DNA from: Candidatus Margulisiibacteriota bacterium
GTDB lineage: Bacteria; Margulisbacteria; Riflemargulisbacteria; GWF2-35-9
Length of the DNA stretch: 42,869 nt
Direction: 5' to 3'
NCBI GenBank assembly: GCA_028715625.1
Contig: JAQURL010000014.1
Location: 1-42,869, forward strand
The position numbers were made by a program, and so were the translations under genes. A model generated the notes under the pieces. It was not told the origin of the DNA. It saw only the letters and a list, made by a program, of their open reading frames with translations, and did no database searches. This document shows, piece by piece, positions 10,972 to 40,406 of the stretch. The stretch's first letter is position 1, and every line of letters starts with the position of its first letter.

Positions 10972-11009
10972 CACAACAGGTTTTATAGCTGAATATAACG
11001 GAGGAGTTT

Positions 11010-17000: not shown

Positions 17001-17345
17001 AATGTCGGTATTGGGACAACAGTTCCCAGTAGTACATTAGCCATAAGCGGGTCAATCGCTGTCAAAGTCACGACCCCCAATGCTGATTTAACCCTGGATG
17101 CCGGCCATTATCTGGTGGCCATGGATGCTTCCGGTGCTGCAAAAACAGTCACCTTACCTTCAGCTTCCGGGTGCGTCGGACGAATCTATATCATAGCTAA
17201 GATAGATAGCAGTGTGAATACTGTCACTGTTACCAGAGCAGGCAGCGACACAGTTAATGGCGAGACTTCTTATGTTTTGCGTAATATTTATGAAACTGTG
17301 CAGATTGTAAGTCTGGGGAATCAATGGTTGGTGATAAGTAAGTGA
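11010..17345 (+). CDS. exported tail-fibre-like protein 4, giant
   Basis: The start is a TTG with GGAGGAG at 11000-11006. The 2111-residue product has a short signal segment (MKSISKISLYMLLIFMAVLF), then the QTDGSIYIYTS beginning related to fibres 2 and 3. I count 25 'VGIGTxxP' units, each followed by an L-H-V or L-E-I strand and a variable insert, giving a long beta-rich shaft. Two VSMDAxGLLGAIxVxTGN modules (DNA near 14508-14590 and 16608-16690) and several ENSSAP modules recur with high DNA similarity. The C-terminus is the shared cap domain (TLPSASGCVGRIYIIAK, SLGNQWLVISK). Adhesion or surface display is the likely role; the ligand is unknown. Long antisense frames inside it are artefacts of the repeat composition. 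Confidence 0.75.
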   Translation: MKSISKISLYMLLIFMAVLFPIMRQQTDGSIYIYTSSPNQSLVVSPNGNVGIGSLNPLKLLHLKNDNAAIRFENDNAFWDYYMLAGGQGLYWSYNGSAAETMALSTSALYLKNSGIIYSKITATNGYTYFNGGNVGIGTAVPNATLHVSGNVSGQPVFIAENSSAPSAIFVSSNGWIGIGTPTPSRPIDFINNNAALRIYNTGTGTGYHAMVMLDAAGAAANFSQIRYSNQGTAYWANGLDPSDFYKYKIGNGINVNINTRFTLDTTGNVGIGITTPSALLHVSGNTYGQPILIAESGAARNALYVSSNGQVGIGTASPRPGYSLTTAQGISIISPGALDWSGGNMRIQESANYNMSFLTWTGSALTEKMRIQGDGNVGIGTSNPTAKLHINAGANDGLRLETNDQNSWGLRIQNRTVSSDFSKSFSIIQDNNGLTKFYNGLTNIMNMDQNGNIGIGTTAPDWKLHIYDSVNHAYIKIMGLDTLDKGLQIGSATHGSIWYFTYRNTTNNPGRNLGLWWYDPNTSENAEKFTFTPSGNFYAAGLVGIGTTAQNKKLEISPAARTTAYSADNSTSWSDLQIINPTNTQYAATGISFIINTAQHINAGTGIAAVKAVNNTDFAADMVFITRPNAVVATERMRITSSGNVGIGTTAPLNKLHVEGTNGGNAGIYLNNATPNNTSYTLYNDSGTLKWNGTALATGASVSGTTGKIPKFTGPSSLGDSIVAESGGNIGIATSNPLYKLDVNANSMHLGAGDNGLFLVSTTGQDAEIAQSSVWNGGWYAKANNAAGIGLYNGDIWFKTDSGLTTGNVYTPSTRMFISKAGNVGIGTTNPQEKLHVSQGAIRWDNAFSGQVGLLSYSGGHGAALLYDINGTAGIDLRASGNTYFNGGNVGIGTTNPQAILHIVQPVNTNWVYPFTPAMIIDSAAGSSQIPLIFRSNNTSYGILKSDTGGNFVIGSMYNGFISFYNQNNELVRITATGNFGIGTTSPAANLHVSGNSAGLPILQVGNAGAPNSLVVSNNGYVGIGTANAQLKLHVYNTPYTALFANSYNGTSYPDGGVIIANNNNTINNFGSLIFADSDIYGTPGSVAIGAQFTDRTNHYGDFVIALRNSSGYGEKFRLTSSGNVGIGTASPTDKLTVIGTVNATTFVGNGSQLTNITVQTASTANKAVSMDAKGLLGAITVATGNSVMSISSVGNVGIGITNPVVKLHVLGSQMFFQGPDASYPDFGLTSYSDTYWMGGSLKFIRSRGTYASPTALVNDDFLGGISTWGYDGATSQRGADVYFRVDGTVSSGKLPSRIEFITSDTNGQATRMVIRSSGNVGIGTTNPIAALDVNGNIHVPYNAYISNETTFGDSTITGFKLAAGNVQIRASGVENIDANYQHLKLGASGYGSGTGYGDIRFYTTNASGQAIDDNYERMRIDNAGNVGIGTKNPTSILHINGTVGSIAGGITFGDGDSGIYEYADDTIGFWNLGAARWVEDSGKIGSAAGGSRWLNEAASSTNPVFSPGNNDETTGIGAAGAGVISFIANGTNVMNVNSNSVGIGTTNPSAELEIVYNGSTDLFKITNSLGNSTFQMPNSTLQALYNNGYNVTAPRISFIGDTDTGFTRAAADQLELITNGTSRMHIDDVGRVGIGIIVPNATLHVSGNLSGTPIFRAENASAQNAFMVSNNGYIGIGTASPESKLEISNGGIRFSGTGGFGTGTDSGLYGDGGTTGKLTLITAGSPRVTISGNGFVGIGTSTPSVKLHVIGGAGYATILEGGTGGSLRFGNGAQGALTYDTNKAILYALAGNDLSLGANNSFDQFYIKTGGNIGIGTTAPSTKLEVAGIISASAAIVNGTITANYFAGNGSFLTNIAAQTASTANKAVSMDAQGLLGAISVTTGNNILNITITGNVGIGTTNPNLGGYSGTITTIYNGNAGSQGVLELVGNRNAINALTGAISFHNTQASQTDKRIALISGVVGSSGDLDSGALLFKTADTNGSMQTRALIDESGNVGIGTTVPSSTLAISGSIAVKVTTPNADLTLDAGHYLVAMDASGAAKTVTLPSASGCVGRIYIIAKIDSSVNTVTVTRAGSDTVNGETSYVLRNIYETVQIVSLGNQWLVISK
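14508..16690 (+). repeat. duplicated 'SMDAxGLLGAI' module in fibre gene 4
   Basis: The DNA at 14508-14590 and 16608-16690 shares long blocks (for example GTCCATGGATGCG and GGGCTTGCT) and encodes the same VSMDAxGLLGAIxV segment. Diverged copies of the module occur in fibre gene 3 near 8671-8750 and 10310-10390. Each copy is followed by a 'NVGIG' unit. The module is therefore shuffled both within and between the fibre genes. Confidence 0.65.
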
Positions 17346-17375
17346 TGATATGAGAGGATCGAGGGAGAGGTCAAA

Positions 17376-17435
17376 TTGAAAATATCATTGAAAATCTTAC
17401 GAAAATTGAAGGTTCAGGTTATCATAAAAATATGA
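17376..17435 (+). other. possible leader reading frame overlapping fibre gene 5
   Basis: A TTG at 17376 behind GGGAGAGG (17363-17370) opens a 19-residue basic frame, KISLKILRKLKVQVIIKI after the start. Its TGA overlaps the ATG of fibre gene 5 as ATGA at 17432-17435. The main ATG has no good ribosome-binding site of its own, so translation may be coupled through this frame. The basic peptide also resembles the long n-regions of fibres 1 and 3, so it could instead be a frameshifted former N-terminus. Confidence 0.4.
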
Positions 17436-20400
17436 AAAAAATATTATATCTTCTTTTAATTATAGTTTGTATACCGGTTATGGCCATGATAGAAAACAAA
17501 CCGTCCGGCTTGATGCTTCTCTATGTGGCAACTCCGAATGTCGGTGTAGTTATTTCCTTAAACGGTAACGTCGGTATCGGGACAACAAATCCTCTTACAA
17601 AATTGCACTTGAAATATGACGGGTCGGTTATAGACGGATTGATGTTTGATGATACCAATATAGCAAACCCCCGAATATGGAAAATTGGCGCAGGTGTGGG
17701 ATTGGCCGGGGGATTTGGCCTTTATGACGCAACAGCTGCTTCTATTAGAGTGATGGTGAGCAGCAATGGCAATGTGGGAATAGGGACAACGAGTCCGGCT
17801 TATAAATTAGATATTAACGGCTCTGTACGTTATGGTTCCAGTCAAACAAATCCTGCGAACTATGATCAGCTTTATTCAAGTGCCGGCGTTTATTATAATG
17901 CTGATGGCACTTATTATCATGATCTTGTTCAAACAACAGCTCGCCCATATGTATCAACGGGGGTAACAGCGGGCGGTTATCATCGCGGAATGATGACTGA
18001 TCTGACATATTATGATTCCGGCGGAACATATACAGGAACTCTGGGTACAATGACCGGTTATCAAACCAATGTGGGTATAGAAAATGCCGGTAGCGGAACA
18101 GCAATCACCAGTGTGACAGGGTTTCAATCAAATGTTTTTAGCTACACCGGAACAACAATAGCCAATGCTTATGGTCTTTATCTTGCTTTTGCCGGCGCTG
18201 GTACGGTTAACAATAATTATGGTATTTATCAGGCTTCAGCTTCGCAGAAGAATTATTTCGGTGGTGCTGTCGGTATCGGAACAGTCAGTCCTGATTATAA
18301 TTTGCAAGTAAATAGCGATACGTATGCTGCTAACATAGCTATCAGTACTAAGGCTAATTATAACTCGACGTTGCTTTTCGGTTCGGATATTGATGGCGGG
18401 ACCAATACGCGCTGGGGTATTCTGGGCATGGACTATCCGAATAATGTTTTCAAGATAGTTAATGGCGGCTCAAATGGCGCATTCGCCAGCAACACTAAAG
18501 GCTTAATGATAAATCCTTCAGGTAACATCGGTATAGGTAATATCAATCCGGATGCGAAATTGGATATAATCAGCACAACCGATAATAATCCCGGTAGCAA
18601 TCAGGCGATACAATTTAACGGTCTCTTTGGTTTCAGAATGGATGCAGGTACTTATACAAATTTGAATCTGGACAGATACAGTGGAGGTTGGGCTTCCACA
18701 CCAATAATGACTTGGGACAGAAATGCCGGGTACGTGGGGATAAGTGCTGCAACCCCTAATTATTATCTTACAATTGGAGAAAATACAGCTGGTAATAATA
18801 CTAATTATTCTCTGGCTGTATTGCGTCACGGATCAATGGCTAATCCAGGCACATATAGCAGTGCAGCTCCTGCGCTCTATATAGGTGATATTTCAGGAGA
18901 TGGCCCTTCTGCTGGAATAGATACGACAGGAGTGGTGAATTTTTCATTAGCCAGAGTTGGTGACAGCGATACATATGCGGATAATGCTACACTTTTAATG
19001 CTGCGTAATGATACTGGCGAAGGTATTAGGGTTTCTGGCAAGCGTAATGTTTTTATCGGTTATGGAACAGCCAGCGCAACATCCAATCAAACAGGAGGAT
19101 TATTAGTTAATGGCAATGTAGGTATAGGGACTACTAGCCCGAATGAAAAATTGTCGATAGCTAATGGAAACCTGGATATTTTGAATACAAGCCCATATAT
19201 TAATTTTTTAAGAGCCGGGACTAATACTGATTATCAGGTGATAAATGATGCAGGTTATTTTAGAATTAAAAAAGCAATTGATGGAGCCACTTGGTCTGAT
19301 CTGATAACAGTAAAAAATGATGGCAACGTTGGAATCGGGACCGCAAGTCCGGGAGGATTTATAAATACAGGAGAGTATTTTAAACCAGATTCTTCCGGTA
19401 CAAATACTGATATTTATTCCGCTAATAATGAAGCGGTTTTGAACTTGGTTTCAAACCAAAACGCGGTTGGCGCGCACATCGGCGGGCTATATTTTACCAG
19501 AGCCGCTGGCAATACTGATGCTCACAGGCAAATTGCCGCTATTCAAGCCAGGCAGACACAAGCCAGCGGTATTTCGGGTGGAGATTTGTATTTTTTTACC
19601 AAAATAAATGGCAGTGGTAACGGAATAGACAGTCCTAATATGGCCATAACAAATCAAGGTAACGTTGGTATAGGGACAAACAGTCCTGCGGGGAGACTGC
19701 ATGTTGTCGGGGGTGGCCTATATGTTGACGCAGATGGTAGTGGCCAATTAAATCTTCGTGGCAGCAGTAATACCGCAAATCGATTATATATGGGATACAA
19801 TACAGGCAGTGATTATACATATATTCAGGGTGTAACTGATTTTATTTCCTATAGAACATTGGCTTTAAATCCAAGCGGTGGCAACGTTGGTATCGGAACC
19901 ACAGCACCTAATTATAAATTACATGTTAATGGAGAAGCTCAAATTAATAACACGGGAAACTCTACTTTTTTATATATAGGCAATGTTGATGGTACACGTA
20001 CCTTTGGTGCGTTGGGCACCTCGGCTGATAATAATGGCTATTTCAGAATTCAAGCAATTAAAACATCCAGTACTTACGGTGACATTGTCATGAATAACTC
20101 CGGTGGCAACGTTGGTATCGGAACAACGAGTCCTGGTGCAAAATTAGAGGTATCGGGAGACTTTAAATTAAACTATAGTTACCGCCATTTGAAATTGTTC
20201 GATATCAGGGGTGTTTCCACAGCCGGAGATTATTTTACAGTTGAGCATTATAGTGACGGTAGTGGTGAAAATGCCACATATGCAACAAGGTACTATGATT
20301 CTTCAACAGCTACAATAAGCGGTCCTTTATTTAGTTTGAGCAGTACTGGTTCGGCATATTTAGTTAAAGCCGGAATAGGTTATTCAGACTCTGGTACAGC

Positions 20401-21607
20401 TACCTTGGCGGTAAATGGTAATGTAGGTATAGGGACTACTTCTCCGGCAGTGAAACTGCATGTTTCCGGTGGATCCGGTATGATTGAGAATACATCACCT
20501 TATCTGATTCTAAAAGACAGCAATAATACGGATCCTGCCGGTTTAGTCGGTTATATTAGCATTCAAGGCTCAGACAGTTTGGAAAAAGCCTGGATTGGTG
20601 ATGGTGGGTTAAACGCACTACTTAGTTTTTATGGTGGGACCGGCTATAGTTCAAATTTTTATACAAATGGTGCAGAGCGCGTGAGAATTGATATATCTGG
20701 CAATGTAGGTATTATGACTACAACGCCGGGAGCACCTTTGGAAATCTATGCATTTGATGGAAAGCATATACGATTGAGTGAGGGTGTTACCAATTACGGA
20801 GAAATCGGTTATGGTTATGCAGGCGCGGGCGGGGCCATGACCTGGATAGGGACAAACTTAAACTCTACCAGCTTAGCAAGAACACAATCCAATGTATCCT
20901 GGCCGAGCTGGTTTTCACTTTATGATACATATAATGATTATTACTATGTAGGGAGAATAGCAGCAGGTGGTGGGTCCACGGTAACAGTTCCTTTTTTTAT
21001 TAAAAATGATGGCAACGTCGGTATCGGAACTACAAATCCGCAAAGGATATTACATGTTCATGCCACGACAGACGGCAACTTATGGGTCAGAGCGGGTTCC
21101 GAGTTTGGTGCTGGTTACAGCGGAACAGCCATTCAGTCTGTTAATGATGCTAATAATACTACTACAACGTTGAACCTTGCCGGGGCACCTATCGTCATGT
21201 TGGGTAACGTTGGTATGGGTATAGCTAACCCAGCCTATAAACTGGATGTGGCTTCCGGCTGGGTAAACTCGGTCAGCGGCTACAAGACCAACGGCGCGGA
21301 CTATGCTGAGTACTTTGAAAATGAAGAACAAATCTCTACAGGTTCGGTGGTCGGAATAAATACAGCAACCGGTAAAGTAAGAAAATATCAGCCGAGTGAT
21401 GAACTTCTGGGGATTTGCACCGAAGGTCACGGTTTTATTGGGAACAATATGGATGAATCAAATGTTAATTATTCTCTGATAGGACTGCTTGGCCAGCTGG
21501 AATTTAATAAAAATGAAACGATTATTGTCGGCCGTCTGGTGAAAACAACCGATGGTAAAAAGATCGGGATACTTCTCAGCAATGGGAAAGTGTTTATTGG
21601 AAAGTGA
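17432..21607 (+). CDS. exported tail-fibre-like protein 5 with C-terminal Peptidase_G2-like domain
   Basis: The 1391-residue product has a signal peptide (MKKILYLLLIIVCIPVMA) and 14 'NVGIGTxxP' or close variant units forming the shaft. It ends differently from fibres 1-4. Residues about 1275-1391 contain GADYAEYFE followed by GSVVGINTATGKVR and LLGICTEGHGFIGNN. This pattern is that of the Peptidase_G2 intramolecular chaperone domain, known from phage neck appendage proteins, which helps the trimer fold and is then cut off by itself. I infer the same role here. Translation may be coupled to the short frame ending in ATGA at its start. It closes the fibre cluster; a palindromic repeat follows. 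Confidence 0.75.
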   Translation: MKKILYLLLIIVCIPVMAMIENKPSGLMLLYVATPNVGVVISLNGNVGIGTTNPLTKLHLKYDGSVIDGLMFDDTNIANPRIWKIGAGVGLAGGFGLYDATAASIRVMVSSNGNVGIGTTSPAYKLDINGSVRYGSSQTNPANYDQLYSSAGVYYNADGTYYHDLVQTTARPYVSTGVTAGGYHRGMMTDLTYYDSGGTYTGTLGTMTGYQTNVGIENAGSGTAITSVTGFQSNVFSYTGTTIANAYGLYLAFAGAGTVNNNYGIYQASASQKNYFGGAVGIGTVSPDYNLQVNSDTYAANIAISTKANYNSTLLFGSDIDGGTNTRWGILGMDYPNNVFKIVNGGSNGAFASNTKGLMINPSGNIGIGNINPDAKLDIISTTDNNPGSNQAIQFNGLFGFRMDAGTYTNLNLDRYSGGWASTPIMTWDRNAGYVGISAATPNYYLTIGENTAGNNTNYSLAVLRHGSMANPGTYSSAAPALYIGDISGDGPSAGIDTTGVVNFSLARVGDSDTYADNATLLMLRNDTGEGIRVSGKRNVFIGYGTASATSNQTGGLLVNGNVGIGTTSPNEKLSIANGNLDILNTSPYINFLRAGTNTDYQVINDAGYFRIKKAIDGATWSDLITVKNDGNVGIGTASPGGFINTGEYFKPDSSGTNTDIYSANNEAVLNLVSNQNAVGAHIGGLYFTRAAGNTDAHRQIAAIQARQTQASGISGGDLYFFTKINGSGNGIDSPNMAITNQGNVGIGTNSPAGRLHVVGGGLYVDADGSGQLNLRGSSNTANRLYMGYNTGSDYTYIQGVTDFISYRTLALNPSGGNVGIGTTAPNYKLHVNGEAQINNTGNSTFLYIGNVDGTRTFGALGTSADNNGYFRIQAIKTSSTYGDIVMNNSGGNVGIGTTSPGAKLEVSGDFKLNYSYRHLKLFDIRGVSTAGDYFTVEHYSDGSGENATYATRYYDSSTATISGPLFSLSSTGSAYLVKAGIGYSDSGTATLAVNGNVGIGTTSPAVKLHVSGGSGMIENTSPYLILKDSNNTDPAGLVGYISIQGSDSLEKAWIGDGGLNALLSFYGGTGYSSNFYTNGAERVRIDISGNVGIMTTTPGAPLEIYAFDGKHIRLSEGVTNYGEIGYGYAGAGGAMTWIGTNLNSTSLARTQSNVSWPSWFSLYDTYNDYYYVGRIAAGGGSTVTVPFFIKNDGNVGIGTTNPQRILHVHATTDGNLWVRAGSEFGAGYSGTAIQSVNDANNTTTTLNLAGAPIVMLGNVGMGIANPAYKLDVASGWVNSVSGYKTNGADYAEYFENEEQISTGSVVGINTATGKVRKYQPSDELLGICTEGHGFIGNNMDESNVNYSLIGLLGQLEFNKNETIIVGRLVKTTDGKKIGILLSNGKVFIGK

Positions 21608-27787: not shown

Positions 27788-27793
27788 AATTGA

Positions 27794-27900
27794 ATAAATC
27801 AACTATGAAAAAAATGAAATTTATTCATTCAGCTTACGAAATAATTTATAGGCGATGCCAAAAATTGGCACCGCAAAGTAATGCTGGAGGTATGGAAGAT
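27794..27900 (+). promoter_or_regulatory. possible structured leader before the pyrophosphorylase-like gene
   Basis: The leader holds a small hairpin GCCAA-AAA-TTGGC (about 27856-27868) followed at once by ACCGCAAAG and then a GGAGG at 27886-27890 ten bases before the ATG at 27901. A hairpin followed by a CGCAAAG joiner is reminiscent of the core of c-di-GMP-I (GEMM) riboswitches, but the second helix cannot be drawn convincingly. It may only be an ordinary leader. Confidence 0.25.
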
Positions 27901-29682
27901 ATGAATAATAAAGTAGTAAATGTAAAAGAAAAAGTAAGAGAATTCAGTGCCGATAAAATAAAATTGAATATCAATGGTTCATTATTATCAGTAGCCGATA
28001 TCATGAAGATGGCAAATGGTAAAACAATATTGATAGACGCGATCGATAATGTAATAACAGAGCTAAACGGAGGGTATCAGTTTTCTAAAGAAATAGCTGA
28101 GGATTGGGTAAACAGATTACTTCTTTTAACCAAAGTAGGTCAAGAAGTTATGGCTGATCCTTATGCTATGTTAAAAGATACCGCCAGATATGCCCCTCCT
28201 CAATTTTTTACTCAAGATAAATTAGAAGAATACAAAAATAATTCTGATGTAATAGTTCTGGATACTATGCCTAATGTCGCATTAAAAGATCCGTCTCCTG
28301 CTGAAAATAAAATTATGAAACATACACTCAGAATAATACCTGCCGGTGGTGTGGACTCTACCTTTTATAAAGGATTAAATAAAGAAGAAAAAGCACAATT
28401 GATGGAAATGTTATACGATAAAGAACTTGTGGATGTTTTTGGTAAGTATGATGCCAAAGATTATATTATAAGATCTTTTGCTTCAATTAATGACAAAACT
28501 GAGAAAAAAAATGTATCAATAATTGAATCATTAATTGTTAATTCATATAAAAACGGCATTCGCAATATTGCTTTATATGGTAATGGCATGAGCTATCAAC
28601 CTATTAAAGAATATTTAGATAAAAAATTCGGTCATATTAAAGATTTAAATATTGTTGTAATACCGCAACCGTTATTACCGAAAATGAAAAAAGTTGATAA
28701 TGAAGTTATCATCTCCGCTGCAAATGGTGGTTATCCCGGTGGCCATGGTCATGGTTTGAAATCATGTCTGGCACACGAGGAGATTCAGAGCCTTATTAAA
28801 GAAAATGATTTAACAAATTTTTATTTTAGTAATGCCGATAATATACCGGCTGACAGTTGGGGTGCAGGGCATATAGCAAAGGTTATCAACAATTTGGATG
28901 ATAAGGATATGGCATTTTTCTTTGTATGGGAACTATTGCGTAAAGGTGGTTTCGGAGGCGAAATTCAGGATAAACTTTTAAATGTTTTATACAACCAGGT
29001 TATAGAAGTAGAGCTTGCCGGTAAATGCGGAGTAGATTTAAGCAAATTTGCCGATTCCAAAGGTGGATATAATACAAACGTCGCTGCTGGAAATTTAGAA
29101 AAAACCGGTGAAACTTTTAAAGATATGCCCATGGCTTTGAAACAAAAAGGAAATGAATATATGTTCGAGGCGTCGCTCGGAACAGCAGCTACAACTAAAC
29201 AGGATCATAAAACCGGAGAACCCAGTTTGCAAAAAAATACAAAATCTGTGTTAGGCCCTAAAGAAGCGGCCTTTCAACATTGGATGCATATTGCTATCAG
29301 AGCTAGAGGTGACCTGTTGTTCGCTCTTATGTCCAACCTGGTTAAAGTAGTAAAAATCGATACAGAATATGGGCCATTATATACCTTAACAATGAATAGA
29401 AAAGGTGATATGCCATTCCCTATTCTTAAAGGAGAAATTGCTGATAAAGCAAATACTTTTGAATTTGTCAGAGCATTTATTAATGCTCATGTTGATGTTT
29501 CTGAATTTACTGGGACAATTGAAATTAATGGTAATCCTAAAGATGTTACATTTACAGGGAACATTAAATTTATAGGTGGAATTGACTCAAAAATAACTTT
29601 TAATTTTAACAGAACTGGTGGTGTCAACGGTGGTATTTTTGACATGACTGAAAAGAAGAATGCGGAATATACATTTAATTAG
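27901..29682 (+). CDS. UDP-sugar pyrophosphorylase-like nucleotidyltransferase, divergent
   Basis: The 593-residue product appears related to the UDPGP family, which makes UDP-sugars from UTP and sugar-1-phosphate. Matches to that fold are GGYPGGHGHGLKSCL near 276-290 (family pattern PPGHGD), YFSNADNIPADSWG near 308-321 (family NxDN), and a repetitive C-terminal stretch NGNPKDVTFTGNIKF typical of the family's beta-helix end. The nucleotide-binding glycine loop is degenerate: RIIPAGGVDSTFYKG at 144-158 instead of a clear GGxGTRxG. The start at 27901 is chosen for GGAGG at ten-base spacing; the frame is open upstream to 27790, but that part reads poorly. It has its own terminator. It may supply sugar nucleotides for a storage or surface polymer; the substrate is uncertain. 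Confidence 0.6.
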   Translation: MNNKVVNVKEKVREFSADKIKLNINGSLLSVADIMKMANGKTILIDAIDNVITELNGGYQFSKEIAEDWVNRLLLLTKVGQEVMADPYAMLKDTARYAPPQFFTQDKLEEYKNNSDVIVLDTMPNVALKDPSPAENKIMKHTLRIIPAGGVDSTFYKGLNKEEKAQLMEMLYDKELVDVFGKYDAKDYIIRSFASINDKTEKKNVSIIESLIVNSYKNGIRNIALYGNGMSYQPIKEYLDKKFGHIKDLNIVVIPQPLLPKMKKVDNEVIISAANGGYPGGHGHGLKSCLAHEEIQSLIKENDLTNFYFSNADNIPADSWGAGHIAKVINNLDDKDMAFFFVWELLRKGGFGGEIQDKLLNVLYNQVIEVELAGKCGVDLSKFADSKGGYNTNVAAGNLEKTGETFKDMPMALKQKGNEYMFEASLGTAATTKQDHKTGEPSLQKNTKSVLGPKEAAFQHWMHIAIRARGDLLFALMSNLVKVVKIDTEYGPLYTLTMNRKGDMPFPILKGEIADKANTFEFVRAFINAHVDVSEFTGTIEINGNPKDVTFTGNIKFIGGIDSKITFNFNRTGGVNGGIFDMTEKKNAEYTFN

Positions 29683-29740: not shown

Positions 29741-29844
29741 TCTTTTTCGTTAACGGATTGCACGCAAAAAATCCATGTATACTCAAATTGACAGGAGCAT
29801 TTCGCAATGCTATGATGACGAAAATTTCAAGCAGAGGTGGTCAA

Positions 29845-31200
29845 ATGAAAACAAGTTCCAAAAAATGGCTGGCAGTATCAATAATTTTATCCTTATTTTT
29901 AATAGCAGGTTGCGGTACCGCAAAAAAAGTTGCGGACGGAAATAAACCTGTTGAAGTTACAATCTGGATCATGCCGAATTCCTTAGAACCAGCCAATGAT
30001 TTGGAAAAAGTTTTGGAAGGTTTCAACAAAAGAAACAAAAATATCAAAGTAAAAATTACTTCACTGGACTGGGGAGCTGCCTGGGTTCGTATCACCACAG
30101 CAGCTGTTTCCGGCGATGCTCCGGATATCGTCCAGCTTGGGACAACCTGGGTTGCGGCCATCAGCAGCATGGGTGCTTTGTATGATCTGAGCAACTGGAT
30201 CGGCGAGATCGGCGGACCAAACAAATTCCTGGCTTCTTCCTGGAAAACTTCAGGTATTGAAGGTTCCAATCAGGTTACAGCTATTCCCTGGTTTGTGGAT
30301 GCCAGAGCAATGTATTACAGAACTGATGTTTTCAATAAACTTGGTCTAACAAAAAAAGATGTCGAGACCTGGGACAGTTTTGACAAAACTTTACAAAAAA
30401 TTCAAAAAGCAAATTTGATGATCGACGGTAAAAAAATAGCACCTCTCGGAATACCGGGTAAAAATGACTGGAACGTAGTACATAATTTATCTCCATGGAT
30501 CTGGAATGCCGGCGGTTCTTTTTTAACTGATGATTACAAAAAGAGTAATCTCGCTTCCAAAGAAGCAGTACAGGGAGTGGGTTTTTATATCAGTCTGGTT
30601 ACCAAGGGTTATGTAAGCAGAGCCTGCCTGGAAAAGAATACTTCACAAGTTGAAAATGATTTTAACAATGGTAATTTTGCTATTATTTTTGACGGCTCTA
30701 ACGAACTGCGCGGATTAACAACATCTCCGGAACAGGGTGGCGCATCAGATACATATGTGGCTAAACGTTTTGATATTGCTCCGTACCCGGAAGGCCCAAA
30801 AGGCAAATTTACATTTGTAGGCGGTAGCAATCTGGCAATTTTTAAAGGTTCCAAACATAAAAAAGAAGCTTGGGAAGTTATTAAGTATCTGGTTTCCAAA
30901 GAAGCTCAGGTTGAATACGCAAAACGCAGCGGTTTTATGCCTGCTAACATCGAAGCGTTTGATGACCCTTATTTTACTGAAGACAGTCGCAGAGCAGTTT
31001 ATAAAGAAGCAGTAAAATTCGGTCGTGCTTATCCCAGTGTTCCTTCCTGGGGCTTGATAGAACCTATCTTGGCACGCAGGTTTGGCATCATGTGGGATTA
31101 TGTGCTAGAATCTAAAACAGCATTAAAATTCGATGATTTCGAGAAAATTCTTAAATTGGCTGATAAAGAAGTAGCTTCAATCCTCGAAAGAAACGAATAA
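29845..31200 (+). CDS. sugar ABC transporter substrate-binding lipoprotein, family 1
   Basis: The 451-residue product has a lipoprotein signal ending LIAGC, with C23 as the lipidated residue, then a family-1 extracellular solute-binding fold (VTIWIMPNSLEPANDLEKVL, GDAPDIVQLGTTW, FVDARAMYYRTDVF). This family binds oligosaccharides and feeds MalF/MalG-type permeases. The start at 29845 is chosen because MKTSSKKWLAVS begins a proper signal and AGAGGTGG lies just upstream; the frame is open to 29758, but that extension would spoil the signal peptide. It heads an operon with two permeases, a giant glycoside hydrolase and a mutarotase-like gene, so its ligand is probably a product of the hydrolase. 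Confidence 0.9.
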   Translation: MKTSSKKWLAVSIILSLFLIAGCGTAKKVADGNKPVEVTIWIMPNSLEPANDLEKVLEGFNKRNKNIKVKITSLDWGAAWVRITTAAVSGDAPDIVQLGTTWVAAISSMGALYDLSNWIGEIGGPNKFLASSWKTSGIEGSNQVTAIPWFVDARAMYYRTDVFNKLGLTKKDVETWDSFDKTLQKIQKANLMIDGKKIAPLGIPGKNDWNVVHNLSPWIWNAGGSFLTDDYKKSNLASKEAVQGVGFYISLVTKGYVSRACLEKNTSQVENDFNNGNFAIIFDGSNELRGLTTSPEQGGASDTYVAKRFDIAPYPEGPKGKFTFVGGSNLAIFKGSKHKKEAWEVIKYLVSKEAQVEYAKRSGFMPANIEAFDDPYFTEDSRRAVYKEAVKFGRAYPSVPSWGLIEPILARRFGIMWDYVLESKTALKFDDFEKILKLADKEVASILERNE

Positions 31201-31222
31201 TACGATTGAATTAAATTTTTAA

Positions 31223-32464
31223 ATGAAAAAACAATCGGACAAGACGTTTAAATATTATTTTAGAAAATATAGAATAGCATATTTATTTATTGCTCCTACT
31301 CTGCTGGGAATGATACTTATGCACCTGGTGCCTATTGTCCAGGGTATTTATATGTCTTTCCTGAAACTGGACAACTTTACTTTAAGCCAGTACCTTGGTG
31401 CTCCATTTGTCATGTTCAAAAATTATTACGAAGTAATTCTGAATGCGGACAGTCCAATGCGTATAGGTATCATTGAATCGATACGCAACACCATAATTTA
31501 TACCGTCTTTGTAACAGTGGGCCAAATCGGTTTGGGTATGATTGTGGCATTAATGCTGCATCAGGATTTTAAGGGAAGATCTTTCGCCAGAACATTATTC
31601 ATGTTTTCGTGGATTGTTCCAACGTATGTTACCGGTATTCTCTGGGGATTTATGTGGCAGCAAAGTATCGGCATCATTAATATTATTTTTTATGATTTTT
31701 TTAAAATACACATTATCTGTCAAAAAATAAATATAATCATACACCTGCTCAAGTTTGACGCGATTATAGGACTTTTTAATGATTTTGTTGTTTGGGATAA
31801 TCAGATAATGTTTACGATAATAAATAGTAAGAGCATGATTTTAAAATTAATTTCTCTTCTGATTGTTTCTTTTATTGTTGTAAAACTTTTTGAATATCTC
31901 AATAAAAGAATATCCAAACGTTTATCCTATTTATTCTTGGTTGTATTTTTGTTCGTGGAATTCATGGCTCTGATCAACGTGCAGATACCTACGTTAATAC
32001 CAACAACCTATAAGCCATTCTGGTTGGTGGGCCCCAATACAATCTGGGCAATTATCATACCCACCATCTGGCGTTTTTGGCCTTTATCCATGCTTATGCT
32101 TCTGGCAGGTTTACAAAGTATTTCCACTGAGCTTTACGATGCGGTAAAAATTGACGGGGCTAATCGCTGGCAGGCTTTTTGGAGTGTTACCTGGCCTATG
32201 CTTAGACCGGTGTGGATGATCCTGATATTATTCGGACTTATTTATAATGTTTATTCTTTCAATATAGTTATCATGATGTTCGGTAACGGAGCAGGGTTCC
32301 CTGGAGAATGGGGAGACCTGATGATGACCAACATTTTTAGAAATTCTTTTATGCGCTGGGACTTCGGTACAGGCGCGGCAACCTCCGTATTATTGCTTAT
32401 GGTTATGATTGTCGCGGTTAATATCTGGTTCCGTTTCTATAAAAAATCAGAGGAAGTTTTCTAA
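31223..32464 (+). CDS. sugar ABC transporter permease, MalF/UgpA type, with two extra helices
   Basis: The 413-residue product is a binding-protein-dependent transport permease. Core features are the first helix after YRIAYLFIAPTLLGM, the conserved LVPIVQGIYMSFLKLD and the cytoplasmic EAA loop ELYDAVKIDGANRWQAF near 303-319, which docks the ATPase. Typical members have about 300 residues. Here about 105 extra residues (roughly 158-262, DNA 31694-32008) lie between the QSIGIIN segment and WLVGPNTIWAI. The insert contains two predicted membrane helices (SMILKLISLLIVSFIVVKLF and YLFLVVFLFVEFMALI) joined by a basic NKRISKR turn, a layout that keeps the core topology intact. Its stop overlaps the next start by one base. 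Confidence 0.85.
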   Translation: MKKQSDKTFKYYFRKYRIAYLFIAPTLLGMILMHLVPIVQGIYMSFLKLDNFTLSQYLGAPFVMFKNYYEVILNADSPMRIGIIESIRNTIIYTVFVTVGQIGLGMIVALMLHQDFKGRSFARTLFMFSWIVPTYVTGILWGFMWQQSIGIINIIFYDFFKIHIICQKINIIIHLLKFDAIIGLFNDFVVWDNQIMFTIINSKSMILKLISLLIVSFIVVKLFEYLNKRISKRLSYLFLVVFLFVEFMALINVQIPTLIPTTYKPFWLVGPNTIWAIIIPTIWRFWPLSMLMLLAGLQSISTELYDAVKIDGANRWQAFWSVTWPMLRPVWMILILFGLIYNVYSFNIVIMMFGNGAGFPGEWGDLMMTNIFRNSFMRWDFGTGAATSVLLLMVMIVAVNIWFRFYKKSEEVF

Positions 32465-34275
32465 TGGCCAGGCTTATAACTTATTATCAGCGTGAAAGAA
32501 TAATCAGATTTTTCAGTATAACCCTGATGATAATTTTTTTAATTGTGAACCTGTTTCCCATCATCTGGATGGTATTTTGTTCATTTAAAAACAATAATGA
32601 CATATTAAGCGGAAATGTAGGTTTCAGCAGGGTGAACACAAGTGTTTATTCATTTTTGAAAAAAAATAATAATCTCTATATATTTTCCGTAGACGGCTCT
32701 GTGGCCAATTACAACATGCAGACTCATAAAATTGTTAAACAGCTGACAATCAAAGGCCAAAGTGTTAATTATTCCGCAGATGACAAATTTTTTTATCTGA
32801 CCAATGTAAACAATGGTATCTTTAAAGTAACTCAAGATTTGCATAAAATTGTTAAAAAAGCAGGTATGCCGATAAAAGGTGTCGATACAAATAAGTTTGG
32901 TAATACATCTATTATTAATGATGACAAATATCTTTATTTTACAGCTGAACTCAAAGGAATAAAAAAAATATTTGTATACGACAAAAAGAACCTTAAATTA
33001 CAAAAAACAATTCAACTTGATTTGGCTGATTCCGATTTTATTCGTTCTTTAAATTTAATAGACGGTTACATCTACATCGGGACCAATCTGGGTTTGCTTA
33101 AGATGGATAAAAATACACAAAAGGTTGTAGCAAATGTTTCTTTCGGTGAAGATTATTATCCATCCGGTGTACAGAAAATACTTGCTATAAAAGGTAATAA
33201 TCTGATTATTCTTTTACAAAACAATGTTCTATTTCTGGATATGCAAAAACAGGAAATTATCAAAAAAAGAAATTATACTTTGATGCGTTTTGAAGACGGT
33301 TTGATCCTGGATAACAAGCTATATCTTGCAAGCGCAGCTGGTTTGGCAGTAGTTAATTTGGACAATGACGCTATTGTCAAGCAATACAAAGGACTTTTTA
33401 AAGAGCTTAAAGATGGTGTTTTGATAGATCCAAAAAGTAATTATACAGCTAATGAATTGAATACTATTTATAAAAATAATGACGAATTTGTTTTGGGGTC
33501 TTCTTACGGAAGACTTTCCTTTATGAAAGAAAACGCTGACGATCCTTATCTGGATTTACAATTACCTCCCGGCTATCGACTTGTTAAATGGCAGAATTAT
33601 TCCGACCTCTGGAAAAATATAGATTTCGGATTATATTTGAAAAACAGTGTCATAATTTCCGGATTTACCATGTTTTTTGCTATGATCCTGGCCACTTTGG
33701 CATCATATGCTCTGGTAAGATATAATTTTAAAGGTAATAATGAATTTGGCATAGCCATTCTTTCCACGCAAATGATCCCGCAAATTATGTATTTGATCCC
33801 CCTGTTTATTATGTTTAAATGGGTTACAGATGTAACCGGTATCCCGATTAAAGGAACTTACGCCGGTTTAATTTTTATTTATACAGCTTTTTTTGTGCCT
33901 TTTTCAATATGGATACTACGAAGTTTTTTTGCTTCCATTCCGGTTGAATTGGAAGAAGCCGCGCGTATAGATGGTTGTAACGGTTTCCAGGTTTTTTATA
34001 AAATAGCGTTACCCTTAGCAATTCCCGGTATTATTGCCACAGGGATTTACGTATTTCTTACCGCGTGGGATGAGTTGATGTTCGCCTGGGTGCTTACCAA
34101 CGCGGATACGTTAACCATTCCTATAGGCATTCGTTTATTTGTAGGAAATTTTCAGAATCGTTACGACTTGATGATGGCTGCAGCTACCGTTGCCACGCTA
34201 CCCGTACTCTTTCTTTTCTTCATGCTCCAAAAACACATCGTCAAAGGTCTCACCGCAGGAGCTGTTAAAGGTTAA
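32464..34275 (+). CDS. sugar ABC transporter permease, MalG type, with an inserted beta-propeller
   Basis: The 603-residue product is the second permease half. Helix 1 (about 13-39) leads to the normal FCSFKNNNDIL, then about 305 residues (54-358, DNA 32623-33538) interrupt the first extracytoplasmic loop. The MalG-like core resumes at NIDFGLYLKNSVIISG and includes the EAA loop ELEEAARIDGCNGFQVF at 495-511. The insert shows about seven similar blades, each with a strand like NNLYIFS, KFFYLTN, KYLYFTA, GYIYIGT, NLIILLQ, KLYLASA or EFVLGSS, followed by a D/K-rich turn. This looks like a seven-bladed beta-propeller facing outside. It may touch the binding protein, the substrate or the adjacent hydrolase. 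The usual length is ~275-300, so this is a clear fusion. It reads in one frame with no sign of error. Confidence 0.85.
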   Translation: MARLITYYQRERIIRFFSITLMIIFLIVNLFPIIWMVFCSFKNNNDILSGNVGFSRVNTSVYSFLKKNNNLYIFSVDGSVANYNMQTHKIVKQLTIKGQSVNYSADDKFFYLTNVNNGIFKVTQDLHKIVKKAGMPIKGVDTNKFGNTSIINDDKYLYFTAELKGIKKIFVYDKKNLKLQKTIQLDLADSDFIRSLNLIDGYIYIGTNLGLLKMDKNTQKVVANVSFGEDYYPSGVQKILAIKGNNLIILLQNNVLFLDMQKQEIIKKRNYTLMRFEDGLILDNKLYLASAAGLAVVNLDNDAIVKQYKGLFKELKDGVLIDPKSNYTANELNTIYKNNDEFVLGSSYGRLSFMKENADDPYLDLQLPPGYRLVKWQNYSDLWKNIDFGLYLKNSVIISGFTMFFAMILATLASYALVRYNFKGNNEFGIAILSTQMIPQIMYLIPLFIMFKWVTDVTGIPIKGTYAGLIFIYTAFFVPFSIWILRSFFASIPVELEEAARIDGCNGFQVFYKIALPLAIPGIIATGIYVFLTAWDELMFAWVLTNADTLTIPIGIRLFVGNFQNRYDLMMAAATVATLPVLFLFFMLQKHIVKGLTAGAVKG

Positions 34276-34298: not shown

Positions 34299-37200
34299 TT
34301 GGAAAAGAAAAAAAATAAAAATCTCAAACAAAAGATAGCAATAGCTATTGCGGTTGTCGTTATAATTATCATTTTGCTTTTACTTCACTCTTGTCAGACT
34401 GACAAAAATGACAGGGACAAACTGGCCAAATACAGAAAAGATGCCTATAACCTATTATATATTACCTGGAAACATTACATTACTCATGAGAACTTTGAGG
34501 GCGACTGGTGGTCGGAAAAATTCAAACATCCGAAAATGATAATGGATGACGGCAGGCCAAATGCTTTTATGGACGGAGTAGACCAGGATGCTGACGGGCT
34601 AAAAGATATTGACTGGTCAAATCCCAAAAAACCTTTTGAACTGGTAGCAGTCAGCGAATCTTCTTCTTATGCGTTGCTTCGTGCTGTAATAATTAAAGAT
34701 AAAAAAACATTCGACAAGGTTTGGAACTGGACAAAAAATAACCTTCAACACAGCCAGATTAACTGGGTCTATTACTGGAAGGACCTGAATAGCCCCAAGA
34801 ACGGCTGGAAAACACCAGATGAACTGGGTATTGAGCGTGATAATCTTTTCGCCTGGAGATGGACTCCCACTATCAGCCCCCGTAATAATAAAAATAAAAG
34901 CGAAGACGGGATAGTTTATTATCGCTGGCAGCAGCCCACTGAAGAACATAACCCGAATGACCCGTGGCGTGATGGTTGGGATGCTGCTTCTGATGCTGAT
35001 CAGGACATCGCACTGGCCCTTATTTTTGCGGATGCTTTATGGGGTAGTAAAAAGGGTGACAGGGTTTATGATTACGCTGAAAACGCCAGGCTTGTTTTAA
35101 AAGATATCTGGAATAAAGAAACTTATATTAATAAAGAGCATCGTTATATGGCCGGTGGAAACAATATAAAATCAGTAGAACCCGGATATTTATCACCGTT
35201 CAGTTATCGTATATTTGATGATTTTGATCCTGAACATAACTGGATGGACCTGGTTGATTCTTCTTACAGGATATTCGATAAATCTTCTACCGCTGTGCTT
35301 TCAGACTGGATAGACAAAACCGGTGAGGTGCATAATCAGAACCCTTATAAAAAGAAAACTCCTTACAGAGCTAATCTTTTACCTGACTGGGTTAGCCTCA
35401 GCAAGACCGGTGATGTAACAAACGGAGTGGAAAGAGAAGAACCGGAATTCGGGACCGACGCTTTTCGTGGTTTGTGGCGCGCGGCTGTAGATTATGACTG
35501 GAATAAAGACAGAAGGGCTGCAGAATACCTGAGACAGCATAGTCCTAATGGCCCTTATGATTTTTTGAATTTCAGAATGCACGATAAACATGGTGACTGG
35601 GCGAAAACAAAAAATTACGATGAAAGCCGTCACCTGGCTTCGGTTTACTGGCATGATGGCGACTATTGTTTATATGAATCTAATTATGAACCACCAGCCA
35701 ATGCTCTCAACAGATTGGAAGATGCAAATGATTACAGGGCTAATTGTGCGCAGTATGCCGTATATTTATCTTATTTCTGGGCTTCTTATGAACATAAACC
35801 TGGTCATAAAACCTTTGATATGATAGAAAAACTGGTTACTCCCATAATTATCCCGGATCAGGACGGTTTCAGTCACCGGGCTTATGTAATCCCAGATGAC
35901 CAGTTGGCCAGAGAAACAGCTGCTAATATAGCCAAGCAAACACCGGTTGAAAAACGTAATCCTAAAGCCGAAATAGGAATTCCTTACCATGATGGTGACG
36001 GTTGGCTTTGTACTGATTCTGACGGCAAATACTGGACTATTTTTGACCATTCCGAGTGGAATTGCCAGATGGATTATTTCAGTAATACCTGGACCTGGTT
36101 GGGGTTGGCTTTCTTTGCCGGGGCTTTCAAGAACCAGTACAAATATCAGAATGTTGTACCGGATATTAAGAATTTTTATGTGTATCTGGACAAGGATTAT
36201 CAGTTCAGAGCTACCGATTATATTAATACCGAGGCTTTTTATATAAGGGCCACAGGTAAGGATAAAAATCCCTTTCACCGGGATTATTTTTATATGAAAG
36301 TCCAGACAACTCAAAAGGATGCTAAACCCATTACCATAAAAATGGTTGAAACAGGAAAGCATACTGGAGTTTATCAGGGTATGGGCTATATCGGGCTTGA
36401 TAGCAGTGATGCCGCGGACAGGGTTGCGGGAAGTGTTGGAAAATATGTTGATTTTATAGTAATGCCCAAGCCGAACCTGAAAAAACGCTATAGAATAGGC
36501 GCCATAATTTTGACCAATATTATCGAAGATTTTGAAGACGGTAATCCGTTTGATGCAAATCCTATGGCCTGGTGGACAGATTCTCTTAAACCTGAGTCGG
36601 GCAAACCCAAATTTACAATAGGAAAAGATAAAGGTATATATATCTGGAAAGATACCGAATGGCATATCCGGTTCCTGGGTAACGGGGATAATGAGGTTTT
36701 TTCCGGCATGATACTTACTGATGGTCTGATGAATGCCGCTAAAACCTCAGATTTAAAAAATAATTCTACAATACAGCAATTAAGAAAATCTTTGAATTTT
36801 ACAATTATTGAGAAAAACGGAGCTACAGGAATTGATTTTACCGCATCCGGCCGCTTTATAATTTTTGATATCAAGTATAACGGTTATTATCAATCCGGCG
36901 CTTTTGCTATAGGAGTTAACGGAGACACCGCTTTTGGTGCGCCTTTAATACTACGTAACGAAGGTGAAACAGGTACTTATAAACTAAAAATAAATAAGGA
37001 AATGGCTGTAAATTCCAAATATTCATTACAGATAGACAAAAAATATATAGGCAAACCATATCCTTATCTGGGCGGAGTGTTATTTAACCCAGAACATATG
37101 GATTGGACCCGTTATGATGAATTTACTTTTGATGTTTACTTGCCTTATGACGTAGGTACTATCAGATGTGATATCCAGGATATAGACGGAACAGTTGTCA

Positions 37201-40200
37201 TTCTTAACGAATATAATCCCTGGAACGAGAAAAAAGGTCCTGGCTGGTATAAATGGCGTTCCAATACATCGCAAGGACTTGCAGTAAACGCAGATTTGGC
37301 ACAGCCTTTTTCCATTCGTTACCGTGACTGGTGGAAAGGCTGGTCATTTGACGATAATAGAAATGTGGATCGCACCAAAGAAATAGATCTGACCAAGATC
37401 AGAAATGTCATGTTCTGTATAAATGGCGGGAACGAAGATATGTCGCAGATACTTATTGATAATCTTTCACTGGAAAGGATTAATTATAATTACGGTTATC
37501 ATCCTCCCAGATATATAAGAAAAATTAATCTTTTCTCCGACCCGGGATATAAAAAACCTATAAATCTGGCGCAGGCATTAATGCAGGAAGATGTTTATGT
37601 AGAAGTTACCGGCAAGGACTCATCACCTGATACTTTTGATAAATTTTCTCTGAGAGCTGAAACCTCAGATAAATATCCCGGTTGTCATGATATTGATGTA
37701 GAACTTCTGGAAACCGCAGAAAATTCCGGCATCTACAGAGGTAGTTTCAAAATAGGAGTTCAGAGCGATCCGTCACACGGGATAATTGGAGCAGCAGAAG
37801 GACACCAGGTTAAATTATATTCAGATGTCAACAAGGGATTGATCAAGAGACTTCAGGTAGGCAGGTTTAAAATAACTACTGTCGTTGATGATTTTGACGA
37901 TCTGGCCGCAGGTCAGAAACCGGATTCCTGGTGGATAGATACAATTGACCCGGCTTCCGGAAGACCGATTTATCCGGCAGGTCAGAAGCTCGGTTATTTT
38001 GTCTGGAAAGAAGGTAATATCTGGAGAATGCGCTGGTCTGCAGATCAGAAACTGCATCACTTTACCGGAGACCTTTTTACCGACAAAACATTGAAGATTA
38101 TTCAAAAATATTATTTGCAGGGTAATGACCGGATAGACCAGATTACTCCCAAGCATATTCATTTTGATACAAATGAACAATATGCCGAAGACGGTTTTGA
38201 TTTTATTACTGATGGCAAGTTCGTAGAATTTCATCCGTTTATCGATAATGAAAAATTTCCTGACAGGACCTGGGTAGGCCCCTATGATTGGAACAAGGCT
38301 TATACTATACCTTTTACTGTAAACAACGTTGGTAAAACAAGGTCTTATGATTTGCTTATTTCCAATAAACTGGCAGTAAGCAAGCCTAACTCCATGCAGG
38401 TACATAAAACATATTTCAGCAAGGATTATCCTTATATAGGTAAATGGGGTTTAAGCGCTGATTTATCCAAGTGGAATGATAAAGATGAATTTTCCATGTG
38501 GATATATTTAAGGGATGACATCGGTAATATCCGAGTTGATTTGGAAGACAATAATCGTCAGACAGCTTGTCTGCACGAATATGACCCATATGATGCGCGA
38601 AAGGGACCGGGATGGTATAAATGGACATCAAGTTATCAGTCTGGTGTAGCACTGGCTGAAAGAAAAATTGACGGACGTCCGATAAAGGACAGACAATTCT
38701 GGACATCATACGATACACATTTGGAGAAGAATATAGATGTTACCAAAAAATTTAATCTGGGTAATATTTTAAATATAGAATTGTGTTTCGGCGGTGGTGA
38801 AAAACGGGACGCTCTGGTTAATATCGACAATCTCCATGTTACTCATTTTAACAGGCATATCGGATATACAAATCCTTTACGTATAAAAGAAATAAAATTA
38901 TACAGCGATCCTCAATATAAAAATGAGATAAAAAAGCTGATTAAAAATCAAACGGTATACCTTGAACTAATTGGTGAAGACGGTGACAAAAATACACAAG
39001 ACAAGACTTTCGCTGAAATCATGACCAATGATAAATTCCCGATTAACAAAAAGATTTCAGTCGCTGTTGATGAGACCGGTAGCCATACGGGTATATACAG
39101 AGGTAAGTTTAAAATCGGACTGGAAACCGATGATAAAGAAGATATAATCGGCGCTTCCTGGCATAGTGTACTTTCGATCTGGTCTGTGGTTAATCTTAAA
39201 TATATCAAGAAATATCCGGTCGGGTTGATAGAGCTTGTTTATGTTATCGACGATTTTGATGACAGCAGTATAGATGACAAATATCCTGTAACCTGGTGGA
39301 TAGGCGGAGCCAAGCCGGAGAACAGGTCTTATCTTTTGCAGGCGACAAATTTTGAAAATCACAAGGTTATGTACGTAAAGAAAAAATATGCCGGAGATGA
39401 TTACCCATATTTCGGTGCTTGGGGTCTTAAATCAGATGTGGAAAAATGGTCGGACAAAGAAGACTTTGTAATGGAACTTTACTTAAAGAAAGACCCAGGA
39501 GAAATCCGGGTAGATATTCAGGACAGAAGCGGGAATCTTGCAGTACTTAACGGTTATAATCCCTGGGACGATAAAAAAGGCCCGGGCTGGTATGAATGGA
39601 GAGCAAGCACCGGAATAGGCCGGGATGCGAAAAATGAACTTGTCGATGTGAACAAACTTAATGTACGCAAGTTCTGGAAAGGTTGGGATCCCAATCAGCA
39701 GCAATATGTCGATATGACCCAGACCATTGACCTCGATCATATTCAAAATGTGCAGTTTTTGATTGATAGCGAGGGGCAGGAGGGTAAAGAAATATGGATC
39801 GACAAAATTTATTTAGTAAATCACAATTACTACCTTGGTTTTACAGCACCCAAGATTATCAGTCGTTATAATTTTTATTATGACCCCGGTTATATGGTGG
39901 AAATTTCCAAAAAAGGTGAAATAATATTCAGAGACAATCATGCTGAAATCGTCGGTATTGATGAAGATCCCAATAGACTGGATGTGTTTAACGCTAACGT
40001 TCTGATATGGGACAAAAAAGAATCTTATCCTGCACCCGTAATGTTCAGAGAAACAGATGTACATAGCGGTGTATATCATGCCGATTTTGATTTGTTGAAA
40101 TTTAAACATCCGACCAGCGACAGAGTCCCTACAATAGATAACTATGTATCAATATATTTGAGTTCAAAAGACAAGTCTCAGAAATTAAGAATAAAATCTT

Positions 40201-40406
40201 TACTTGCTTTTGACTGGTCTTTATTGGAAAAATATCTCAAATCAATAGGAGGCAAGGGCAAAGGCTTTGGCTGGCCATGGTGGTGGTTATTATTAATAAT
40301 AGTGATTATCATTCTTACTGTTGTTTATTATTATTACCAAAAAACCAAAAAACAAAAAATAATACATCCTGATAAAGTAAGAAAATCCAAGTTGCGCTTT
40401 AAGTAA
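34299..40406 (+). CDS. giant membrane-tethered GH8-like glycoside hydrolase with repeated carbohydrate-binding-like units
   Basis: The start is a TTG after TAAGGA. The 2035-residue product has a hydrophobic N-terminal segment (about 13-29) followed by LHSC, an imperfect lipobox with C32, and a C-terminal membrane helix (about 1991-2015, WPWWWLLLIIVIIILTVV) with a basic tail. Residues about 42-620 resemble an (alpha/alpha)6 GH8 enzyme: SESSSYALLRAV (candidate acid E120), FAWRW at 184-188 and SDADQDIALALIFA (D232, D234). Then come Ig-like beta domains near 622, 1074, 1529 and 1852 alternating with three units starting DFEDG or DDFDD near 744, 1194 and 1649 and containing PYPYLGG/DYPYIGKWG and GPGWYKWR. 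These resemble CBM11/CIA30-type jelly rolls. The substrate is unknown; GH8 members cut beta-1,4 glucans, xylans or chitosan. Confidence 0.75.
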   Translation: MEKKKNKNLKQKIAIAIAVVVIIIILLLLHSCQTDKNDRDKLAKYRKDAYNLLYITWKHYITHENFEGDWWSEKFKHPKMIMDDGRPNAFMDGVDQDADGLKDIDWSNPKKPFELVAVSESSSYALLRAVIIKDKKTFDKVWNWTKNNLQHSQINWVYYWKDLNSPKNGWKTPDELGIERDNLFAWRWTPTISPRNNKNKSEDGIVYYRWQQPTEEHNPNDPWRDGWDAASDADQDIALALIFADALWGSKKGDRVYDYAENARLVLKDIWNKETYINKEHRYMAGGNNIKSVEPGYLSPFSYRIFDDFDPEHNWMDLVDSSYRIFDKSSTAVLSDWIDKTGEVHNQNPYKKKTPYRANLLPDWVSLSKTGDVTNGVEREEPEFGTDAFRGLWRAAVDYDWNKDRRAAEYLRQHSPNGPYDFLNFRMHDKHGDWAKTKNYDESRHLASVYWHDGDYCLYESNYEPPANALNRLEDANDYRANCAQYAVYLSYFWASYEHKPGHKTFDMIEKLVTPIIIPDQDGFSHRAYVIPDDQLARETAANIAKQTPVEKRNPKAEIGIPYHDGDGWLCTDSDGKYWTIFDHSEWNCQMDYFSNTWTWLGLAFFAGAFKNQYKYQNVVPDIKNFYVYLDKDYQFRATDYINTEAFYIRATGKDKNPFHRDYFYMKVQTTQKDAKPITIKMVETGKHTGVYQGMGYIGLDSSDAADRVAGSVGKYVDFIVMPKPNLKKRYRIGAIILTNIIEDFEDGNPFDANPMAWWTDSLKPESGKPKFTIGKDKGIYIWKDTEWHIRFLGNGDNEVFSGMILTDGLMNAAKTSDLKNNSTIQQLRKSLNFTIIEKNGATGIDFTASGRFIIFDIKYNGYYQSGAFAIGVNGDTAFGAPLILRNEGETGTYKLKINKEMAVNSKYSLQIDKKYIGKPYPYLGGVLFNPEHMDWTRYDEFTFDVYLPYDVGTIRCDIQDIDGTVVILNEYNPWNEKKGPGWYKWRSNTSQGLAVNADLAQPFSIRYRDWWKGWSFDDNRNVDRTKEIDLTKIRNVMFCINGGNEDMSQILIDNLSLERINYNYGYHPPRYIRKINLFSDPGYKKPINLAQALMQEDVYVEVTGKDSSPDTFDKFSLRAETSDKYPGCHDIDVELLETAENSGIYRGSFKIGVQSDPSHGIIGAAEGHQVKLYSDVNKGLIKRLQVGRFKITTVVDDFDDLAAGQKPDSWWIDTIDPASGRPIYPAGQKLGYFVWKEGNIWRMRWSADQKLHHFTGDLFTDKTLKIIQKYYLQGNDRIDQITPKHIHFDTNEQYAEDGFDFITDGKFVEFHPFIDNEKFPDRTWVGPYDWNKAYTIPFTVNNVGKTRSYDLLISNKLAVSKPNSMQVHKTYFSKDYPYIGKWGLSADLSKWNDKDEFSMWIYLRDDIGNIRVDLEDNNRQTACLHEYDPYDARKGPGWYKWTSSYQSGVALAERKIDGRPIKDRQFWTSYDTHLEKNIDVTKKFNLGNILNIELCFGGGEKRDALVNIDNLHVTHFNRHIGYTNPLRIKEIKLYSDPQYKNEIKKLIKNQTVYLELIGEDGDKNTQDKTFAEIMTNDKFPINKKISVAVDETGSHTGIYRGKFKIGLETDDKEDIIGASWHSVLSIWSVVNLKYIKKYPVGLIELVYVIDDFDDSSIDDKYPVTWWIGGAKPENRSYLLQATNFENHKVMYVKKKYAGDDYPYFGAWGLKSDVEKWSDKEDFVMELYLKKDPGEIRVDIQDRSGNLAVLNGYNPWDDKKGPGWYEWRASTGIGRDAKNELVDVNKLNVRKFWKGWDPNQQQYVDMTQTIDLDHIQNVQFLIDSEGQEGKEIWIDKIYLVNHNYYLGFTAPKIISRYNFYYDPGYMVEISKKGEIIFRDNHAEIVGIDEDPNRLDVFNANVLIWDKKESYPAPVMFRETDVHSGVYHADFDLLKFKHPTSDRVPTIDNYVSIYLSSKDKSQKLRIKSLLAFDWSLLEKYLKSIGGKGKGFGWPWWWLLLIIVIIILTVVYYYYQKTKKQKIIHPDKVRKSKLRFK

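Follow-up and report, generated by a model that had tools for sequence, protein, structure and literature searches.

A MalG-type sugar permease with a sensor-like beta-propeller in its first periplasmic loop in Margulisbacteria and Fibrobacterota

The window (the whole stretch of 42,869 nucleotides analysed here, from a Margulisbacteria genome) contains the genes of a sugar importer followed by that of a very large GH8-containing protein with a hydrophobic segment near either end (Table 1). The MalG-type gene is an uninterrupted frame of 603 codons with neither a stop nor a frame break. The Pfam domain BPD_transp_1 covers residues 410-596 of its product (E 6e-17), the top NCBIfam matches were the glucose permease GlcU and MalG (both under the cut-off), and the EAA loop EEAARIDGC with the downstream PG is kept across the alignment of full-length relatives (A1). 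These features, and the presence of the MalF and binding-protein genes upstream, agree with the sequence-only reading of this DNA, that had described an otherwise normal importer subunit. However, the permease core starts at residue 375, versus residues ~61-70 in close relatives without the domain, due to an insert of ~305-320 residues between helix 1 and the core. The protein has a basic N-terminus, located inside, ahead of helix 1, and therefore the insert lies outside the membrane. Both this topology and the relatives without insert support its placement in the first extracytoplasmic loop. Regarding the limits proposed initially (32623-33538), the site was right and the 3' end fell 8-15 residues short of the end of the modelled domain. 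A large domain in this loop is untypical of MalG-type CUT1 permeases, so the window protein is a variant rather than a typical member; the permeases that we fetched for comparison from Bacillota, Chloroflexota and one Endomicrobia had no insert, supporting the view that the domain is absent from the standard MalG subfamilies.

Table 1 Features of the importer locus, in positions of the window.
Feature	Position	Strand	Evidence or remark
Solute-binding protein, CbpB / beta-GlyBP kind	29758..31200	+	Pfam, PDB comparison
MalF-type partner permease, 413 aa	31223..32464	+	BPD_transp_1
MalG-type permease with inserted propeller (predicted), 603 aa	32464..34275	+	Pfam, full-length relatives in alignment A1
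Transmembrane helix 1, residues ~10-43	32491..32592	+	Hydropathy; AlphaFold2 helix 7-40
Insert including its short flanks, residues 53-374	32620..33585	+	Comparison with insert-free relatives; profile A4
Blade 1, residues 61-95	32644..32748	+	DSSP of AlphaFold2 model
Blade 2, residues 102-133	32767..32862	+	DSSP of AlphaFold2 model
Blade 3, residues 148-184	32905..33015	+	DSSP of AlphaFold2 model
Blade 4, residues 193-226	33040..33141	+	DSSP of model; not in short class
Blade 5, residues 236-269	33169..33270	+	DSSP of model; not in short class
Blade 6, residues 276-308	33289..33387	+	DSSP of model; not in short class
Blade 7, residues 327-355	33442..33528	+	DSSP of model; followed by short strand 363-366
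Permease core with EAA loop (EEAARIDGC...ALPLAIPG)	33586..34272	+	BPD_transp_1; 89-90% identity to L002-L004
Very large GH8-containing protein	34299..40406	+	Downstream gene also in L002-L005 and L009

Some other features of the window deserve mention. Between the motifs 'GIINII..D' and 'KPFWL' of the MalF protein lie ~91 additional residues that include two hydrophobic stretches (31700-31996, residues ~160-258). Apart from the window's genome, only one other has this segment (G002, locus L102, 32% identity in it), and it is absent from the other relatives compared. The GH8 protein (2035 residues) has a BcsZ-like GH8 domain and repeated modules further on; it is possibly a beta-glucanase anchored in the membrane. 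A 630-residue protein encoded upstream of the importer (27790-29682) gave no Pfam or NCBIfam match. Farther upstream, five consecutive large ORFs (4751-21607) are mostly rich in 'GNVGIGTT-P' repeats, the last one with a C-terminal Peptidase_G2 (IMC autoproteolytic) domain; their products resemble secreted fibres or proteins of a tail-spike-like type.

The structure of the permease was predicted with AlphaFold2 from an alignment of 25 full-length relatives. The model has 28 strands in residues 61-355, i.e. seven four-stranded blades, plus an extra short strand after the last one, with pLDDT values mostly of 83-93 per ten-residue block in the modelled propeller and lower ones in the membrane part. 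All the Foldseek matches in PDB among those listed were propeller proteins (best E 1.4e-13, TM 0.65 on the target), including the designed Tako8, Fbw7, BamB and BtuG, and the alignments to whole propellers extended over 320-340 columns. Furthermore, Pfam propeller families were detected in the 25 family members: PorZ_N_b_propeller in 17, PQQ_2 in 11 and Reg_prop in six (best Reg_prop E 9e-6). Both prediction and matches bear out the seven-bladed beta-propeller first recognized from the letters, and a seven-bladed propeller is what the insert is predicted to be.

A full-size insert was found at the same site in ~26 of the 55 Margulisbacteria genomes sampled, which are independent assemblies, while several of the others have a short insert and others none. 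Among 151 Fibrobacterota genomes sampled, 26 contained the permease, nearly always as an open frame of at least 603 aa. One of the named matches is an isolate, the cultured Fibrobacter intestinalis ATCC 43854 (L044), and it carries the propeller permease. Profiles of the Margulisbacteria and Fibrobacterota inserts aligned end to end (E 1e-14 and 3e-20), the Fibrobacter insert having ~130 additional residues between blades 2 and 3. Thus, permeases with a domain between helix 1 and the core, for which a search had been proposed, exist in two phyla. The identical insertion site in so many independent assemblies of two phyla, one of them of an isolate, and the intact frame inside the insert rule out an assembly fusion of two genes; the probability that the insert is an assembly or annotation artefact is negligible, and our analysis provided no observation in favor of it. 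In one genome (L082, G032:C101) an insert-bearing permease seems to be split over different frames, as by a frameshift or a sequencing error. No stand-alone homologue of the insert with E <1e-4 was detected in the genomes of the phylum, and no paper on a propeller domain in MalG, a permease or an ABC importer was found in the open-access literature. The combination of a CUT1 importer and a sensor-type propeller is apparently undescribed, and it is common to two bacterial phyla.

The closest solved relatives of the insert are glycan sensors. A profile of 16 Margulisbacteria inserts (A4) was searched against PDB and retrieved the periplasmic sensor propellers of the hybrid two-component systems (HTCS) of gut Bacteroides (3ott/3va6 1.5e-31, 4a2l 1e-23, 3v9f 2e-18), then PorZ (3e-4) and nothing further below 1e-3. 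Profiles made only with Fibrobacterota inserts gave no significant match to HTCS; these inserts are too diverged on their own, and their link to HTCS rests on the collinearity with those of Margulisbacteria. In the periplasmic part of HTCS a YYY domain accompanies two Reg_prop propellers of seven blades each, and four such periplasmic domains bind oligosaccharides as measured by ITC (PMC3243724). Taking together the architecture and the homology to glycan-sensor propellers, we consider this assignment almost certain. The idea of a built-in sensor gains real support from these relatives, whose periplasmic domains bind oligosaccharides; sensor ancestry alone does not show glycan binding, because propellers serve many roles. 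If the homology extended to function, the propeller could report bound glycan or transport activity to some partner, much as the propellers of HTCS signal to a kinase. C. thermocellum no longer induces its cellulosome once the cellodextrin importer is lost (PMC9601137), and therefore importers of this kind can be connected with regulation. However, neither a kinase, a YYY domain nor a regulator is fused to the window permease or adjoins it, and we consider a signalling input very unlikely. Actually, the Pfam scan of the permease gave no second propeller, YYY domain or histidine kinase, i.e. it is not an HTCS sensor protein.

The distribution of the domain within Margulisbacteria was analyzed with a tree built on helix 1 and the core, with which a separate core-only tree was concordant. 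The proteins with no insert and those with a short one form a cluster (100/99) nested within the insert-bearing ones, and a single group of all the no-insert permeases, those of the outgroups included, was rejected by the AU test (p-AU 0.007). Besides, the motif GRVGLSR, which is the left flank of the insert, is retained in the no-insert Margulisbacteria proteins. Tree and remnant rule out that these represent the ancestral state. Blades 4-6, and no others, are missing from the short class. Hence, within Margulisbacteria the domain was first reduced to four blades and later lost, and the placement of one no-insert protein (L023) among the short-insert sequences suggests a second, separate loss. 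A model of the short-class insert has 16 strands in four blades, but Foldseek gave a TM of ~0.3 with an rmsd of ~13, which does not support a closed four-bladed ring. The lineages with a reduced or lost domain still have the permease and the binding protein, indicating that the propeller is accessory and not essential for transport. The family thus provides a testable series of seven, four and zero blades on a near-identical permease core.

As to the substrate, the best solved relatives of the binding protein (29758-31200) were the 7c63 group (E 1e-106), which we take to be beta-GlyBP of Thermus thermophilus, and CbpB 7x0i (E 1e-100), and the Fibrobacter binding protein gave the same list. Genes for GH8, GH94 phosphorylase, GH9, GH26, GH16, GH5 and carbohydrate-binding proteins were found near family members. 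According to PMC9601137, beta-GlyBP is a laminaribiose binder and CbpB serves the only importer that C. thermocellum has for cellodextrins, the ATPase of which is also encoded elsewhere; F. succinogenes contains more of FSU_1047, a binding protein similar to CbpB, on cellulose (PMC6851124). The homology of the binding protein and the beta-glucan enzyme neighbours make beta-gluco-oligosaccharides the probable substrate class of the importer. The ATPase was searched for in 18 relatives, and most had a 45-49% match to MalK, unlinked to the locus. In the window's own assembly (G000) the best match was only PotA-like (40%), beside Pot-type permeases, and no dedicated MalK-type ATPase was found, what may reflect an assembly gap, a loss, or the sharing of the Pot ATPase. 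In two loci (L008 and L029) a gene for a family-2 glycosyltransferase adjoins or splits the importer genes, with GH8 or GH94 genes next to it, which might tie polysaccharide synthesis to import.

The same neighbourhood raises the question of an outside enzyme, to which the transport had been supposed to be linked. The propeller might act as a scaffold holding the importer to glycan hydrolases or envelope polymers, so that uptake takes place beside hydrolysis, as could be expected from the GH8 gene that comes directly after the permease, both in the window and in its nearest relatives, and from the beta-glucan enzymes and carbohydrate-binding proteins adjoining many other members. Nevertheless, the enzyme family varies by lineage (GH8, GH26, GH94, with no such enzyme seen in Fibrobacter), whereas the domain is maintained, which makes this role distinctly unlikely; the supposed link to a hydrolase is one of genomic proximity.

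The sequence-only reading had also suggested a docking platform, and the binding protein is a candidate to dock there. In type I importers the binding-protein dock lies next to the first periplasmic loop of MalG, where the insert sits, and the propeller could touch the loaded binding protein as the P2 loop of MalF does in E. coli, raising its local concentration or selecting the loaded form. The permease and the binding protein are found together throughout the phylum, and the propeller AztD passes zinc to the binding protein AztC (PMC6689063). On the other hand, the identity between the window and its relative L002 was 44% in the insert, versus 89% in the core, 77% in the binding protein and 79% in MalF; i.e. 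the insert evolves much faster than these three. Such a difference in rate would not be expected between a dock and its partner, which weakens docking to a conserved binding protein, as does the maintenance of permease and binding protein after the loss of the domain, and we consider such a docking or allosteric platform unlikely. Many Margulisbacteria loci have no binding-protein gene adjoining the permease, but in those genomes it is encoded elsewhere, ruling out that the propeller substitutes for a missing binding protein.

The rapid divergence of the insert may fit the recognition of a changing glycan as well as a weakly constrained module or spacer. The most conserved residues in the insert are mainly the structural Gly/Asp of the blade turns, and none was identified as a candidate for ligand binding. 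By loop type, the BC loops were more conserved (0.62) than the others (0.49-0.52); a conserved binding face was considered and dropped, since these high values come from the same Gly/Asp turns. Accordingly, a conserved surface patch, which had been proposed as support for the role of the propeller, could not be demonstrated from the loop-type conservation of the inserts.

With these data, an accessory glycan-recognition module is the reading that we favor, because of the fast divergence, the sensor ancestry and the repeated loss. In type I sugar importers, recognition is credited to the binding protein. The cluster 29758-34275 encodes an ABC importer of type I (CUT1), probably for beta-gluco-oligosaccharides, in which a Reg_prop/HTCS-type propeller is grafted into the first periplasmic loop of the MalG subunit. 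In our proposal the propeller would project into the periplasm alongside the binding-protein dock. There, this accessory, membrane-tethered module would bind glycan chains or oligosaccharides, and either keep them near the binding protein or tune the transport cycle, the basic transport mechanism being independent of it. The mechanism as a whole, with the propeller as an accessory module in the periplasm that recognizes glycans or regulates the importer to which it is fused, is plausible rather than probable, and glycan binding as the function of the propeller is a tentative assignment, possible from its sequence relatives. A stronger version, in which the propeller is a second glycan receptor recruited from two-component receptors that senses periplasmic beta-glucan oligosaccharides and gates transport or signals, is unlikely. 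If it were true, the passage from seven to four to zero blades would be a natural record of the dismantling of such a module.

Compared with known systems, the window protein shares with the MalG/CUT1 permeases the BPD_transp_1 core, the EAA loop and the gene order binding protein - MalF - MalG, and the permeases of Paenibacillus and Tumebacillus, with 57-60% core identity to it, have no propeller. Extra extracytoplasmic domains on importer membrane subunits are found as the P2 loop of MalF and as the fused binding domains of OpuA and GlnPQ, but their folds are unrelated to the propeller, and P2 belongs to the other subunit. The HTCS sensor propellers of Bacteroides (Reg_prop; 3ott, 4a2l) are likewise seven-bladed, homologous, extracytoplasmic and found in a glycan-using context; however, HTCS have two propellers, YYY and kinase, while the window protein has one propeller, none of the others, and sits in a transporter. 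AztD (PMC6689063) and BtuG, the latter among our Foldseek matches, are propellers that capture or pass on substrate for an importer, but they are separate proteins with other substrates, and BtuG serves an outer-membrane transporter, in contrast with a propeller fused to the permease. Transporter B of C. thermocellum, with CbpB, and beta-GlyBP of T. thermophilus have the closest solved binding proteins, and the ATPase of transporter B is also unlinked; no propeller is reported for it in the excerpts available of PMC9601137. If a sensor-type propeller on the permease recognises or controls, cellodextrin-type uptake would have a second point of recognition or control, in a domain that has been retained in two phyla, of bacteria that use fibre or are uncultured.
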